A DNA stretch of 57,636 nt from a virus, in IMG/VR virus record IMGVR_UViG_3300030104_002283, positions 1 to 57,636 of that record. One strand, given 5' to 3'. The notes beneath the pieces were generated by a model that was given only the letters and a program-made list of their open reading frames with translations, had not been told where the DNA came from and searched no databases. The position numbers were made by a program, and so were the translations under genes. Shown here one piece after another: positions 31,636 through 38,743 of this stretch; the stretch's first letter is position 1; the number at the start of each line of letters is the position of its first letter.

Positions 31636-31655
31636 TGATAGTGAGTACTTACTTG
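31636..31655. repeat. TGATAGT(R)AGTACTTACTT palindrome, copy 1
   Basis: TGATAGTGAGTACTTACTTG overlaps the terS stop codon. It matches the site at 34370 except at one position and contains a near-perfect dyad. It is a possible operator, perhaps for the Arc-like protein. Confidence 0.5.
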
Positions 31656-32119
31656 TTAAACATTGATTGTATCTTCTGTTCTAACTCTAACCTTATCTCA
31701 TCTGATGATTTATTGCTTGTGGTTGTTTCTAGTCTTTCAGTGAACAGTGCCACCTCTGACACTTTGCCTAGCAGTTCCAATGCCCTTATCCTAGATGCTT
31801 CGTTGTTCTCTGTATTCAATGCTTCTTTCTGTAGCTGTTCCAACACCATCTGTCTAAGAGATAGCCCTGTAGTGGAAGCATACTCACTCTTACGCCTTAA
31901 TCCTTGCTTTACCCTTTGGGATACCTTGGGGCTACTCATAAGCTTAGATGCTTCTGTCCATATGCTACTATCTTTCATATTCTCTGTGCTGTATGCGTTG
32001 CGATAACTCTCACTTGCTGTCATACCTGATAAGACCCCTTGAACAAATTTTTCTTGCTTGGGAGTAAGCCCTGATATGTTAGTTATATTATCCTTGTTAT
32101 TCTTGTCTTTATTGCTCAT
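31649..32119 (-). CDS. terS: Terminase small subunit
   Basis: 156 residues. ISGLTPKQEKFVQGVLSGMT plus ASESYRNAYSTENM is the helix-turn-helix start of Terminase_2-type small subunits, followed by a long oligomerisation helix. Adjacent terL supports the call. It should recognise the packaging site, which may be in the adjoining intergenic region. Confidence 0.88.
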   Translation of the reverse strand: MSNKDKNNKDNITNISGLTPKQEKFVQGVLSGMTASESYRNAYSTENMKDSSIWTEASKLMSSPKVSQRVKQGLRRKSEYASTTGLSLRQMVLEQLQKEALNTENNEASRIRALELLGKVSEVALFTERLETTTSNKSSDEIRLELEQKIQSMFNK

Positions 32120-32126
32120 ATCTATG

Positions 32127-32145
32127 TATTAATCTATTAATATTT
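32127..32145. repeat. TATTAA-N4-TTAATA dyad, site 2
   Basis: TATTAA-TCTA-TTAATATTT lies eight bases upstream of the terS start, preceded by ATG as at sites 1 and 3 (ATGTATTAA). Confidence 0.7.
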
Positions 32146-32255: not shown

Positions 32256-32284
32256 TTGACACGATACCCCACATAAACTAACAT
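32256..32284 (+). promoter_or_regulatory. sigma70-like early promoter
   Basis: A perfect -35 TTGACA (32256-32261), 17-base spacer and -10-like TAACAT (32279-32284, four of six consensus positions). Transcription would start near 32291 and enter the non-coding leader and early block. This is the best match in the divergent region between the late and early blocks. Confidence 0.75.
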
Positions 32285-32289
32285 ACGCA

Positions 32290-32740
32290 GTGTTGAGGGA
32301 TTGATGAGACCCAAAAAAGCGAAGAAAAAGTAGCTAACTCCCCTTTCCAAGACACCCATAACGAGACATCTAGTTCTCCTTGAAGTTGGGCTTCGCAACG
32401 AAGCAAAACGATTTGGGTTGCCTAGAGCAACACAAGGTATCGGGGAGACAAACAGAACGGGCTAAACTGGAAATGCCTATCGTGAAAAATCCGAGCATCA
32501 AGCTTTTGTGCGTTTATCCAGTATCCCGACAGTGTTGCCTTTGATGGTTCAATACCGATTTTGCGGAGAATGTAGCGGTTCTACCCTTGATTGAGTTTTT
32601 AAAACTGGCTTAGTGTCCTACTGAACATGGAACGGGGTGTAGCAGTAAAAGTGCTAATTCTGATGGTGTAGCAAAGTCTTTCTCTAGGGGCTAAAAGGTG
32701 TTGTGTGTAGTCAGAAAATCCCATGCTGTTGTGAGTTTTT
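32290..32740 (+). ncRNA. Structured non-coding early leader RNA of unknown class
   Basis: About 450 bases with no substantial reading frame, visibly richer in G+C than the flanks and full of local hairpins: GCTTCG-CAA-CGAAGC (32390-32404), GTTGC-CTAGA-GCAAC (32417-32431), GTAG-CGGTT-CTAC (32572-32584) and TAGCA-GTAAAAG-TGCTA (32640-32656). A longer-range CCCAAA/TTTGGG pairing is possible. It starts just after the early promoter and ends near a T run (32733). Downstream a hammerhead-like fold could free it by cleavage near 32776. I cannot match it to a known large phage RNA. Confidence 0.6.
32304..32333 (+). CDS. Possible nine-residue basic leader peptide
   Basis: ATG 32304 has GAGGG four bases upstream and encodes MRPKKAKKK then TAG, beginning about 13 bases after the predicted transcription start. 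It could be a leader peptide coupling translation to the fold of the following RNA. It could equally be chance. Confidence 0.3.
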   Translation: MRPKKAKKK

Positions 32741-32748
32741 TGCTTATG

Positions 32749-32767
32749 TATTAACGATTTAATATTT
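32749..32767. repeat. TATTAA-N4-TTAATA dyad, site 3
   Basis: TATTAA-CGAT-TTAATATTT between the structured leader and the first hammerhead-like fold. Confidence 0.7.
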
Positions 32768-32769
32768 GA

Positions 32770-32825
32770 TTATGTCCTTGAATTAACAAGCTGAACGAGT
32801 ATCCGCAAGGGTACAAGAAACATAA
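32770..32825 (+). ncRNA. Hammerhead-like ribozyme 1 (type III topology)
   Basis: Stem III pairs TTATGT (32770-32775) with ACATAA (32820-32825). The cleavage triplet GUC ends at C32776. Stem I is CTTG/CAAG (32777-32780 with 32787-32790). The core CUGA-AC-GA follows at 32791. Stem II is GTATCC/GGGTAC capped by GCAA (32799-32814, one G-U pair). AA then GAAA (32817-32820) precedes stem III. Departures from consensus are one extra base at N7 and two extra A before GAAA. The RBS of the next gene follows immediately. Confidence 0.6.
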
Positions 32826-33526: not shown

Positions 33527-33587
33527 ACCTATTGATAAGCAACACAGAAAGGTGGCGAAAAAGCGGACACTTGTTCGCTTTCTAGGT
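33527..33587 (+). ncRNA. Hammerhead-like ribozyme 3 (type I topology)
   Basis: Matches ribozyme 2 exactly through stem I 5' strand, core, stem II and GAAA (33527-33560). Stem III differs in sequence but pairs: AAAGCG (33560-33565) with CGCTTT (33576-33581), loop 33566-33575. Three stem III pairs covary relative to copy 2. Stem I 3' strand TAGGT at 33583-33587. Triplet UUC, cut expected after C33582. Twenty bases separate its end from the next start codon. Confidence 0.78.
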
Positions 33588-34388: not shown

Positions 34389-34391
34389 TTA

Positions 34392-34446
34392 ATACTGTCC
34401 TACAATATTGGTAATTGTAGCTGAATGAGATACCACGAAACAGTAT
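34392..34446 (+). ncRNA. Hammerhead-like ribozyme 4 (type III topology, pseudoknotted, reduced stem II)
   Basis: Stem III ATACTGT/ACAGTAT (34392-34398 with 34440-34446), seven pairs. Triplet GUC, cut expected after C34399. Stem I CTACAAT/ATTGTAG (34400-34406 with 34414-34420), seven pairs. Core CUGA-AU-GA (34421-34428). Stem II is reduced to G34429-C34436, but its loop bases UACCA (34431-34435) are exactly complementary to UGGUA in loop I (34409-34413). GAAA at 34437-34440. The extra base at N7 is shared with ribozyme 1. Confidence 0.68.
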
Positions 34447-34485
34447 ATTGTTTAGAAATATTAATTTGTTTCTATTGGAGTAATT

Positions 34486-34608
34486 ATGAAATTATTTAAT
34501 GATTTCAAAAAATTTCTTTCTGACATGAGAGGGTTAGAAAGATTTAACTGGTATGTATTGAAGCCTTTGGCTTTAATATTTGTATTAATAGCTTTTAGCA
34601 TTTTTTAG
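34486..34608 (+). CDS. Small membrane protein
   Basis: 40 residues, starting MKLFNDFKKFLSDMRG, with a C-terminal transmembrane helix (NWYVLKPLALIFVLIAFSIF). RBS TTGGAG. It follows ribozyme 4 and precedes the MoxR gene. A short membrane toxin-like or host-modifying role is possible but unproven. Confidence 0.6.
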   Translation: MKLFNDFKKFLSDMRGLERFNWYVLKPLALIFVLIAFSIF

Positions 34609-34622
34609 GAGTAAGTAAAAAT

Positions 34623-35624
34623 ATGAAAGCAAAACAATTAGAAAAAAGCTTAGAGAAGTTAATCTCTATTAAACAGCCCTGTTTCATATGGGGCGGTGTT
34701 GGTGTGGGTAAATCAGAGATTGTCCACAAAGTAGCTAAAGATATGGGCTATAGGATTGAAGATGTAAGAGTTGCATTGTTAGACCCTGTAGACCTTAGAG
34801 GTGTGCCTAGTGTTGAAGATGGAAGAACTGTTTTTAATCCGCCTGTATTTTTACCTACTGATGAACAGCCTAAAACATTGTTGTTTCTTGATGAACTTCC
34901 GCAAGGCAGTCCATCTGTACAGAACGCATTGTTTCAGCTAATCAAGGATAGAAAACTTGGCGAGTACACATTACCTAAAGATACTGTAATAGTTAGTGCG
35001 GGTAATAGAGTACAAGACAAGGCGGGGGCTAACAGAGTTAATACCGCTTTGGGAGATAGGTTTGTTCACTTGAACTTAGATGTATGCCATCAAGAATGGA
35101 TTGACTGGGGCATTAAAACTAAGAAGATAAAACAAGAAGTATTATCCTTTATCTCTTGGCAAGGCGAAGATTATTTATATCACTTTGATAAAAATGCTTC
35201 AGTCAATGCAACGCCTAGAGCATGGGAATATACAAGTAATGTATTGGCTACTGACCCTGATAAAGACATAGAGCAAGAACTTTATGCGGGTATTATTGGC
35301 GAGGGTATAGCCCCTGAATTTATAGCATTTGTTAGAAGATTTAGGAACTTACCTAGTGTTGATGTTCTGTTAAAAAATCCTGAAGATATTTTACAAGACT
35401 TAGAACTTAAATCAGACATGATTTATATGATTGTTGGTGTTCTAGCAAAAAATATGAATAAGGATAATATCCAAAAGTACTATGAATTTCTAAGAGATAC
35501 GCAAGATATTCAAGATGAGTTTTTAGTTATGGCTATGACTATGGCTACAGCTAGAGATGAAAGCTTGAAGAAAACAAAAACATATATTGATTATGAAATT
35601 GATTATCAAGATATTGGGGCTTAA
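34623..35624 (+). CDS. MoxR-type AAA+ ATPase
   Basis: 333 residues. Walker A GGVGVGKS (24-31), Walker B LLFLDE (86-91), sensor-like TVIVSAGNR (near 122-130). ATP-driven chaperone that usually works with a VWA-domain partner, encoded two genes downstream. Its substrate in the infected cell is unknown. Confidence 0.85.
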   Translation: MKAKQLEKSLEKLISIKQPCFIWGGVGVGKSEIVHKVAKDMGYRIEDVRVALLDPVDLRGVPSVEDGRTVFNPPVFLPTDEQPKTLLFLDELPQGSPSVQNALFQLIKDRKLGEYTLPKDTVIVSAGNRVQDKAGANRVNTALGDRFVHLNLDVCHQEWIDWGIKTKKIKQEVLSFISWQGEDYLYHFDKNASVNATPRAWEYTSNVLATDPDKDIEQELYAGIIGEGIAPEFIAFVRRFRNLPSVDVLLKNPEDILQDLELKSDMIYMIVGVLAKNMNKDNIQKYYEFLRDTQDIQDEFLVMAMTMATARDESLKKTKTYIDYEIDYQDIGA

Positions 35625-35636
35625 CAGCCCCTTGTC

Positions 35637-35655
35637 TATTAACCCATTAATATTT
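35637..35655. repeat. TATTAA-N4-TTAATA dyad, site 4
   Basis: TATTAA-CCCA-TTAATATTT, directly before the RBS AAGGAG of the next gene. Confidence 0.7.
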
Positions 35656-35666
35656 AAGGAGAAACT

Positions 35667-36548
35667 ATGGCTCAATTAAGAGACAAAGCATTATTGATTG
35701 AACTTCATTTGAAGAAATGGAGTGGAGTAAAAACTGATAAATCATTAAGAGATGAATTAGCTAATAATCATTCTATTGATGAGACTAGAATTTCAGTCAA
35801 CAAAAAACTAACTAACAGCCCTATCTTGAAAAAAATCAAAAAGATTGATGGCAAGATAAGAACTGAATGTATCTATAGCGGGGCGGGTTATAGCGGTTAT
35901 TGTTTGGCTTGGGATAATCAAGGTACTTATCTATTACCCATTGAATTAAAAGATAAGTTTGAAAGAGACTTCGTTGGTTGGCAGAACGAAAGAGAAAAAT
36001 TAGTAAAAGATTTTGTTAAACAATATGACAATATTATTGCAGAAGCTAAGACTGATTTAGGAACTACTTTTAATATTGATGATTTTCCTAGTAGAGATGA
36101 GATAGAAGATTTATTTGAGTGTAGCATCTTAAAGAAACCTATCCCATCAAGTAATGATATTAGAGTTAATCTTCCCGCCAGTGAGATAGCAGAGTTAAAA
36201 GCAAATGCTAAAGCTGAAGAAGATGCGAAGATGCAAAAGATAACTGGGGCAGTTGTTGATAAGGTTCAAGGTGTATGTAAACACTTTGCAGATAAGATTG
36301 ATAGCGGAGAAACATTTAGAGATAAAACTGTTGATAAGCTTATTGAACTTTGCGAAGTGCTACCCGCATTGAATATAAATGGAGATGCAAATATTCAGTC
36401 AGCACATCAAAAAGCTATGGATACTTTTCATGGTAAAGATATAACAGCAGATAAAGTTAGAAATGATAAAGAGTTAGCTAAAGAATTATCTAATACAGCT
36501 AAAGATATTGTTTCTGATTTAGATACTAAAGGGGGTTATTTTGACTAA
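35667..36548 (+). CDS. Unknown protein between MoxR and VWA genes
   Basis: 293 residues, helical and charged, with WSGVKTDKSLRDELANNHSI and a long coiled region (KLVKDFVKQYDNIIAEAKTD). It may be a DUF3150-type phage protein, but I am not certain. Its place in the MoxR-VWA operon suggests a linked role. Overlaps the next gene by 8 bp. Confidence 0.6.
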   Translation: MAQLRDKALLIELHLKKWSGVKTDKSLRDELANNHSIDETRISVNKKLTNSPILKKIKKIDGKIRTECIYSGAGYSGYCLAWDNQGTYLLPIELKDKFERDFVGWQNEREKLVKDFVKQYDNIIAEAKTDLGTTFNIDDFPSRDEIEDLFECSILKKPIPSSNDIRVNLPASEIAELKANAKAEEDAKMQKITGAVVDKVQGVCKHFADKIDSGETFRDKTVDKLIELCEVLPALNINGDANIQSAHQKAMDTFHGKDITADKVRNDKELAKELSNTAKDIVSDLDTKGGYFD

Positions 36549-37743
36549 CGATATTGATAAAAAAGCAAAAAACATAATGACTAAAGCTAGGGTTCATTTG
36601 TTAAAAAATAATCCTTTTTATGGAAAACTTGCTATGGATTTAGATTTTGTTGAAAGCAAAAAGTTTGACACTATGGCGGTTGATGGACAGAGAATATTCT
36701 ATAACCCTGACTTTGTGCATAAGATTACTTTTCTTGAAACAGTTGGAGTGATAGCCCATGAGGTACTTCATGTTGTCTTTAAACATCATTTGCGTAGGAA
36801 CGACAGAGACCCTTTCTATTGGAATGTTGCGGGAGACTATATCATCAATTACATTTTAAATGATGAGGGCTTTATGCTTCCTGAGGGTGGCTTACTTGAC
36901 TATTCTTACAAGGGTTCTACTACCGAGAAAGTATATGAAGATGTCTATAAAGAAAGCGATAAGCAAGATGCTAATACTGATGGCGGAGACAATACATCTG
37001 ATAGTGAAGATGATGAAAGAAAATCTTTATCTAAAAGAATGTGGGGCGAAGTCATAGATGCAGTCATTGAAGAAGTTGAGGGTGTATCTAACGAAGAACA
37101 AATAGAAAAGTTAGAACAAGAAATAAACGCTAAAGTCATTGATGCAACGCAAGTATCTAAGACTATGGGTAAAGGTGGAGATGCTTTTAAATCTATTATG
37201 GATATGGTTAGAACGCAGTCTGTATCTTGGGAAGAAGTGTTAGGTAATTTAATATTAGATAAGACTACTTCTAACGATTATAACTTTAATACACCTAACA
37301 GAAGATATGTATATCAAGATATGTACTTACCATCTGTTGAGAAAAAGCCTAACCCTAAAGGTGTGATTGCTCTTGATATTAGCGGGAGTGTAGATAAAGA
37401 AACTATGGCTATGATGCAAGATGCAGTGAATAACATTGTTCCTGTTGCTAACTTTGAAGAACTAACAATTCTTTATTGTGATGATTGCATAAGGCAAGTT
37501 GATACATTTCATGGTGGAGAAGAAGTTGAGTTGGATTATATTCGTGGTGGCGGAACAGACTTTGAGCCTGTATTCAAATATATAGATAAGGAACTTGATA
37601 ACGAGGTTGCTTTTCTTGTTTACCTAACTGATGGGTGGTGTTGGGATATACCTAGTGAGCCTGAATATCCTGTGATATGGGCGACAACGGACACTGACCA
37701 TTACTTTAAGGATAAATTTGGAGAGGTTGTTTATGTTGAATAA
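36541..37743 (+). CDS. VWA-like protein with N-terminal zinc-peptidase-like domain (DUF2201 type)
   Basis: 400 residues. TTG start chosen since GGGGG lies five bases upstream; an internal ATG at 36577 is the alternative. HEVLH (73-77) resembles a zincin motif. A charged acidic linker follows (about 140-160). The MIDAS motif DISGS (279-283) and later YLTDGW mark a VWA fold. The partner of the MoxR ATPase, likely forming a metal-dependent protein-remodelling complex. Confidence 0.82.
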   Translation: MTNDIDKKAKNIMTKARVHLLKNNPFYGKLAMDLDFVESKKFDTMAVDGQRIFYNPDFVHKITFLETVGVIAHEVLHVVFKHHLRRNDRDPFYWNVAGDYIINYILNDEGFMLPEGGLLDYSYKGSTTEKVYEDVYKESDKQDANTDGGDNTSDSEDDERKSLSKRMWGEVIDAVIEEVEGVSNEEQIEKLEQEINAKVIDATQVSKTMGKGGDAFKSIMDMVRTQSVSWEEVLGNLILDKTTSNDYNFNTPNRRYVYQDMYLPSVEKKPNPKGVIALDISGSVDKETMAMMQDAVNNIVPVANFEELTILYCDDCIRQVDTFHGGEEVELDYIRGGGTDFEPVFKYIDKELDNEVAFLVYLTDGWCWDIPSEPEYPVIWATTDTDHYFKDKFGEVVYVE

Positions 37744-37785: not shown

Positions 37786-38046
37786 ATGAAAAATAAGTAT
37801 TTAATAATTAGCAAAAGAAATGGAGACTTAGGTATTAACAAAGATGGATTTGTTCAATATCGTAATTTTTCTGATGAGCCATTAGTGATGGTGGTTGAAG
37901 AAGAAACTCCATTCACAAAACAAGATGCATTTAATGAGTTTGCATCTATGGTAGAAACTACAGAAGAAAGAAAATTAAATATTAACCATTTTAATATTTT
38001 CAGTGGGGCTGACATTGATGATATTAAATATTACTGGGGGGCTTAG
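37786..38046 (+). CDS. Small phage protein of unknown function
   Basis: 86 residues. ATG 37786 preferred over an upstream GTG because AAGGAG is five bases from it. KYLIISKRNGDLGINKDGFV and MVVEEETPFTKQDAFNEFA. No family recognised. Confidence 0.6.
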   Translation: MKNKYLIISKRNGDLGINKDGFVQYRNFSDEPLVMVVEEETPFTKQDAFNEFASMVETTEERKLNINHFNIFSGADIDDIKYYWGA

Positions 38047-38047
38047 A

Positions 38048-38743
38048 ATGAATAAAGAAAAACTAAAAAAGATAGCAGACAAGTTTGTTATGGAAAGAGA
38101 ACAAGAGCAGTTGGAATATCCTGTTGAGGATTATTCCGCAGACAAAGTTATTCTTTATCACGGAACTAATACAGATAACCTTGATAAGATACTTGAAGAT
38201 GGGCTGTATCCTAGAGGAAACAACGAGGGTAATTGGGAACATACCATACGCAGTAGAAATGATATGGTATATCTAACGAACTCTTACGCAGTTTACTTTG
38301 CTATGTGTTCAATACCTAAAGATAGCAAGGCAAGTCCTGTAGTCCTAGAAGTAGAGGTTGATACAAAAAGTCTTTACCCTGATGAAGATTTTATGGAACA
38401 AGCCACAAGAAATAATGCTATGTGGCAAGATTATTTTATGTCTATTGGACATGAAGATATGACAGCTAGAACCGAATACTTTAGAGATAACATATCTGAA
38501 TTTCAAGATGATTATACTAACAGTTTAAAGCATCTAGGTAATGCCTGTTATTTTGGGGAGATTAAACCTGAAAGCATCAAAAGATATTCTGTCTTAGATG
38601 TTGGTAAAGTTTGGGAACATTCTGACCCGACAATAACTTTAATGAATTATAAAATTTTAGGTAGCAAATATAGAAAGCTATCCAAAAAATTAATGTGGGA
38701 AGAACCCCTATCTATTAACCAAGTAATATTTAATAAGGAGTAA
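38048..38743 (+). CDS. ADP-ribosyltransferase-like protein
   Basis: 231 residues from ATG 38048. The segment LYHGTNTDNLDKILEDGLYP (36-55) matches the start of H-Y-E-type ADP-ribosyltransferase folds (His38), followed by VYLTNS (74-79) as the second motif. The third catalytic Glu cannot be placed with confidence. It may modify host proteins early in infection. The frame overlapping upstream of this ATG is not needed. Confidence 0.65.
   Translation: MNKEKLKKIADKFVMEREQEQLEYPVEDYSADKVILYHGTNTDNLDKILEDGLYPRGNNEGNWEHTIRSRNDMVYLTNSYAVYFAMCSIPKDSKASPVVLEVEVDTKSLYPDEDFMEQATRNNAMWQDYFMSIGHEDMTARTEYFRDNISEFQDDYTNSLKHLGNACYFGEIKPESIKRYSVLDVGKVWEHSDPTITLMNYKILGSKYRKLSKKLMWEEPLSINQVIFNKE
38713..38731. 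repeat. TATTAA-N4-(T/G)TAATA dyad, site 6
   Basis: TATTAA-CCAA-GTAATATTT, one mismatch in the second arm, within the end of the ART-like gene and just before the next RBS. Confidence 0.55.

Follow-up and report, generated by a model that had tools for sequence, protein, structure and literature searches.

A candidate new family of large structured noncoding RNAs at the head of a phage early operon

What is the role of the noncoding interval that separates terS from a divergent, + strand early operon in a marine-type phage? The question is raised by IMG/VR virus record IMGVR_UViG_3300030104_002283, which was analysed over its whole length of 57,636 bases (hereafter the window). A preliminary description had read this interval as a possible structured noncoding RNA (ncRNA) that heads the early operon and is released from the message by a hammerhead ribozyme. 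No phage record matched the window by DNA similarity, and the closest named phages, as judged by the large terminase, include 023Pt_psg01 and HTVC027P (pelagiphage), at ~55-57% identity.

Relatives were gathered by searching IMG/VR with terS. After the removal of duplicates, 21 distinct homologues of the ncRNA were obtained, 19 of them full length, in four phage clades: A (L002-L006, L016), B (L007-L014), C (L067-L072, L130) and D (L060-L065). The DNA upstream of terS shows 86-93% identity in clade A and ~70% in clade B, and clades C and D were aligned by profile. The ncRNA is single-copy, and in every homologue it is flanked by terS on one side and by the divergent early operon on the other. 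The same contigs, L130 and a few chance matches emerged from two motif scans run independently of terS; the matches in L126, L127 and L132 lie inside unrelated sequence and were rejected as homologues. A covariance model assigned 157 bits to the held-out sequence L070 and 135 bits to L072, and its matches are confined to the clade of the four groups. No homologue was detected with this model in distant terS phages or in the isolates HTVC027P, HTVC023P, 023Pt_psg01, DSL-LC04 and MinM2, and a scan of genome contigs with terS returned one weak relative (L139) and no ncRNA homologue. The features of the locus are collected in Table 1; conservation ends near the last position given there for the ncRNA, and the stretch from there to 32776 is assigned on the basis of the ribozyme.

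Table 1. Features of the ncRNA locus, with positions numbered along the window
Feature	Positions	Strand	Remarks
terS	31649-32119	-	PF03592 match
Sigma70-type promoter, TTGACA-17-TAACAT	32256-32284	+	-35/-10 pair recurs in most homologues
Operator-like 9-mer TACCCCACA	32265-32273		In promoter spacer
Conserved structured ncRNA, ~455 nt	32291-32745	+	21 distinct homologues, covariation, no Rfam family
5' domain: P1 core pairs (32297-32300/32345-32348), P1b (32306-32308/32338-32340)	32293-32352	+	
Invariant CCCCU	32340-32344	+	Complementary to invariant AGGGG (32686-32690); without covariation support
P2 (32377-32383/32440-32446), enclosing P3 and P4	32377-32446	+	Per-helix covariation counts
Hairpin P3	32386-32409	+	Inside P2
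Hairpin P4, loop CUAGA	32412-32436	+	Inside P2
Pseudoknot, P5 (32459-32462/32475-32478) by P6 (32466-32471/32517-32522)	32459-32522	+	
Hairpins P7b and P7	32481-32510	+	In long loop of pseudoknot
3' arm: P8 (32658-32663/32711-32716), P9 (32671-32674/32701-32704)	32658-32716	+	
Palindromic element TATTAACGATTTAATAT	32749-32765	.	Between ncRNA and hammerhead; second copy at 32127
Type III hammerhead variant, predicted cut after C32776	32770-32825	+	Descriptor scan
Type I hammerhead, U3-A8 core TTGATAA	33235-33296	+	After first early gene
Type I hammerhead, U3-A8 core	33527-33587	+	After second early gene

A coding function for the region was ruled out, given that no reading frame is kept open across the homologues and that the insertions and deletions between them are non-triplet. 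Its GC content is 0.44, compared with 0.32 for the early genes. The folding energy of the single sequence is no better than that of shuffled versions (z +1.28), and therefore the case for structure rests on comparison among 17-19 full-length sequences from the four clades. In the core alignment, which holds 17 sequences and a 42-pair structure, standard pairs occupy 91.9% of the pair cells, versus 74.6±1.0% in shuffles, and this proportion falls to 39-48% when the partners are slid as a control. Changes on both sides occur at 26 of the 42 pairs, with 121 double-change cells against 40.4±4.9 in shuffles. When the null was simulated along the tree, ten of 59 pairs, distributed over five helices (P1, P1b, P3, P6 and P7), reached E<0.05, versus 0-2 in slid sets; these include three pairs each from P6 and P7, as well as alignment columns 22-54, 23-53 and 15-60 in the P1/P1b domain. 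In an all-against-all covariation test, P7 ranks first and three stacked P6 pairs are placed within the top eleven of ~96,600. Part of the structure was derived from the very alignment on which it was then tested, and prediction from clade A alone guards against this circularity: helices so obtained are 71% paired in the other clades, compared with 38-48% when shifted.

Several elements of the model merit individual description. Standard pairs, in GC, AU, UA, CG and GU forms, fill all four positions of the P1 core and all three of P1b in every one of the 17 sequences. P5 (GGGC/GCCU) and P6 (ACUGGA/UCCAGU) are likewise 100% paired in 17 of 17, with double-sided changes at three of the four P5 pairs and five of the six P6 pairs. 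Given that these two helices cross and are both paired throughout, they form an H-type pseudoknot that carries P7 in its long loop. The 3' arm bears a near-invariant loop, UCUCUAGGGGCUAA, and its P8 helix is paired in 14 of the 17 sequences, being kept in clades A-C and different in clade D. A long-range contact between the CCCCU and AGGGG segments, which would join the ends of the ncRNA, is possible, and the invariance of these segments is not counted as evidence for it. Finally, G.U pairs outnumber A.C mismatches in the helices by 163 to 20, which indicates that the folding molecule is + strand RNA.

On this comparative evidence, the interval specifies a conserved, structured, non-coding + strand RNA, and its place beside the early promoter is conserved as well. 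Covariation, conservation and strand asymmetry thus lend strong support to the structured RNA proposed in the preliminary description, which had looked to covariation among homologous regions for confirmation. The same description was right that the region lacks coding potential and is richer in GC than its neighbours, and among the four or more hairpins it had noticed, P1b, P3, P4 and P7 proved to be real and to covary.

Comparison with known families points to an RNA of a different kind. A cmscan search of Rfam 15 at the gathering score gave no match for the window or for representatives of clades B, C and D, and relaxed E-values gave none for the window region or for four clade representatives. 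GOLLD, ROOL, OLE and group I introns were rejected as identities because their Rfam covariance models produced no match, in keeping with the earlier failure to assign the RNA to GOLLD or ROOL. A limited selection of open-access literature on phage hammerheads, GOLLD/ROOL and pelagiphage RNA likewise contained no description of it. We judge that the ncRNA probably represents a hitherto uncatalogued family of large structured RNAs in phages. GOLLD and ROOL are similar in being large structured phage ncRNAs with pseudoknots, conserved loops and no known function, and assembly into a homo-oligomeric cage is a trait of both. However, their sizes are ~660 and >800 nt, versus 430-460 nt for the present family, and they are commonly, if not strictly, found near tRNA arrays (PMC12286853), whereas this ncRNA lies beside terS in a window where ARAGORN finds no tRNA genes.

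The sigma70-type promoter named in the preliminary description is no better than chance in the window sequence alone (2.1 expected in shuffles), but its -35/-10 pair stands at an equal distance from the ncRNA in most homologues, which upholds the assignment; transcription is predicted to begin near 32291. At the 3' U-run, no intrinsic terminator was found. Within the promoter spacer, TACCCCACA or a near form of it is found in most of clade A, and it occurs only once in the window. In the other clades, most members have its reverse complement, TGTGGGGTA, in this spacer, and the 9-mer is likely an operator. As a separate matter, a dispersed palindrome, TATTAACnnnTTAATATTT, is present in about 11 copies in the window (at 239, 32127, 32749, 35637, 37750, 38713, 39870, 40846, 42206, 44279 and 47547), many of them immediately upstream of genes, and is preserved ahead of terS in relatives. 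It is likely an operator or promoter element.

The hammerhead that the preliminary description had placed at the junction between the ncRNA and the first gene is present in the sequence, in the form of a non-canonical variant. Stems I, II and III comprise 4, 6 and 6 bp, the cut site is GUC, GAAA is in place, and the core CUGAACGA corresponds to CUGA-A-CGA (an A6a insertion) with two extra A residues ahead of GAAA. This motif had no Rfam match in the window region at E<=5, and the descriptor scan gave 2 hits in 1.54 Mb of simulated control sequence. Every clade A member whose contig extends that far carries the variant, and in L002 its stem II is rebuilt by compensating changes. Perreault et al. 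(2011; PMC3088659) described core variants of the U3-A8 and A6a types and report low activity (slow cleavage) with a single A6a insertion; the window variant bears two extra bases beyond it. The type I, II and III hammerheads of that study occur among early genes, as they do here. In contrast with them, the window example stands between mRNA and a long structured RNA, and several phages of the group share the A6a form.

Between the ncRNA and the first gene, no hammerhead is present in clade D or in most clade B members, and in these two clades the ncRNA extends to within 13-27 nt of a start codon that has a ribosome-binding site. Ribozyme release, if it occurs, is therefore specific to certain lineages: the earlier proposal is plausible where this phage and clade A are concerned and does not hold for the family in general. 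By eye, clade C shows a hammerhead-like motif with an imperfect stem II at this junction, and L066 shows a degenerate one.

With these observations in hand, we propose the following course of events. The host sigma70-type RNA polymerase would initiate early transcription at about 32291, and the first ~455 nt would fold into the P1/P1b domain, the P2-P4 branch, the P5/P6/P7 pseudoknot and the P8/P9 arm, with the near-invariant loop displayed by the last of these. In this phage and in clade A, the variant hammerhead would then cut after 32776 to yield an RNA of ~485 nt whose 3' end is defined; the mRNA of the exchangeable small early genes would run on and be cut again by the type I hammerheads. 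For the ncRNA, the most likely mode of action would be in trans, through a host or phage partner that it binds at an early stage of infection. We infer the start site, the cleavage, the discrete RNA and the trans action from sequence, and we consider the proposal as a whole, from new RNA family and early start through fold, clade A release and trans action, to be reasonably probable. As to mode of action, we lean slightly toward a trans-acting early RNA because of the size, the complexity and the recurring ribozyme junction.

A position at the head of an operon would equally suit a cis-acting element. The main rival to trans action is thus operon-wide antitermination, wherein the nascent RNA would bind the elongating RNA polymerase and suppress pausing or termination in the manner of the HK022 put RNA, which is likewise structured and opens an early phage transcript. 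The ncRNA stands directly behind the early promoter in every homologue, and exchangeable downstream genes would fit an operon-wide role. Moreover, put acts without being tethered through the transcript (PMC9378689), so that ribozyme cleavage would not disturb such an element and is by itself no proof of action in trans. However, put measures only ~70 nt and consists of two stem-loops, whereas the ncRNA is six times that size and differs in architecture. In addition, terminator-like sites in the early region are no more frequent than chance predicts (6 found against 6.1 expected). We regard this explanation as unlikely while ranking it first among the alternatives.

Control of the adjacent gene by a 5' leader, whether riboswitch-like or translational, would suit the short distance to the start codon in clades B and D. 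We judge it quite improbable, given that BLAST places the first genes behind 16 homologues in many unrelated families that differ even within clade A, and exchange between such close relatives speaks against gene-specific cis control; the clade A hammerhead would also sever the RNA from its gene. The 132-aa first early gene of the window itself has no relatives that we could find in IMG/VR.

The phi29 packaging RNA is a phage-encoded structured RNA of 174 nt, and by analogy the ncRNA might serve as a partner of the neighbouring terminase, since it adjoins terS in all contigs found, including those from RNA-motif searches. This reading is similarly improbable: synteny within a small clade would lead one to expect adjacency to terS, the ncRNA is part of the early transcript whereas terS is on the opposite strand, and distant terS relatives lack it. 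The ncRNA is larger than the phi29 RNA and has no Rfam match. A DNA element with incidental hairpins (a pac site, origin or operator cluster) would account for the location beside terS, a common setting for pac sites, and for the flanking palindromes, but it is very improbable because compensatory pairing across the pseudoknot and the G.U asymmetry are explained only by + strand RNA.

Few large structured RNAs are known from phages, and none of them has a known job. The present ncRNA has a pseudoknot fold supported by covariation, a defined place beside the early promoter and a likely ribozyme-made 3' end, which opens it to direct synthesis and testing. Phage hammerheads would gain a candidate role in dividing functional RNA from early mRNA.

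Other hammerheads are found in these phages. The two type I examples were identified by descriptor (core UUGAUAA, with compensating U3-A8) and have no Rfam match. In L005 and L006 the corresponding repeats carry the canonical CTGATGA (CUGAUGA) core with C3-G8, and a natural exchange of C3-G8 for U3-A8 has been described (PMC3088659). Hammerheads with the A6a form (CUGAAUGA) recur across clades, in the window (34390-34494), L011 (3604-3657), L060 (252-306), L061 (689-743) and L067 (1304-1365). Given this recurrence, mostly with long stems I and III, A6a may be a standing variant rather than a product of decay.

In the more distant phages L026-L028, canonical type III hammerheads occupy the junction with the first gene on the early strand, 3' of an unrelated non-coding region, and L029 and L089 also appear by eye to have hammerheads there. 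That second conserved region, upstream of terS in L020-L029 and L089, is unrelated to the window ncRNA and contains a hairpin around UCUACCC/GGGAUUC, with a compensating stem (GGUGC/GCACC, GGAGC/GCUCC); hammerheads come after it in several members. Type II hammerheads are repeated among the early genes of L026, L027 and L028, and two of those in L028 are confirmed by Rfam. It is conceivable, and we suggest it only tentatively, that at least two unrelated RNAs (the window family and that of L020-L029/L089) fill the same slot in the early transcript, and that ribozyme-released early RNA is a general strategy of host takeover.

Among the early genes of the window, 34623-37743 covers an AAA/MoxR-like ATPase (domain match) and, after it, a third early gene, the product of which was judged by eye to be VWA/metallopeptidase-like. 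The early protein encoded at 38003-38743 has a weak match to the PARP catalytic domain, under the curated cut-off, and is possibly an ADP-ribosyltransferase with a host target.
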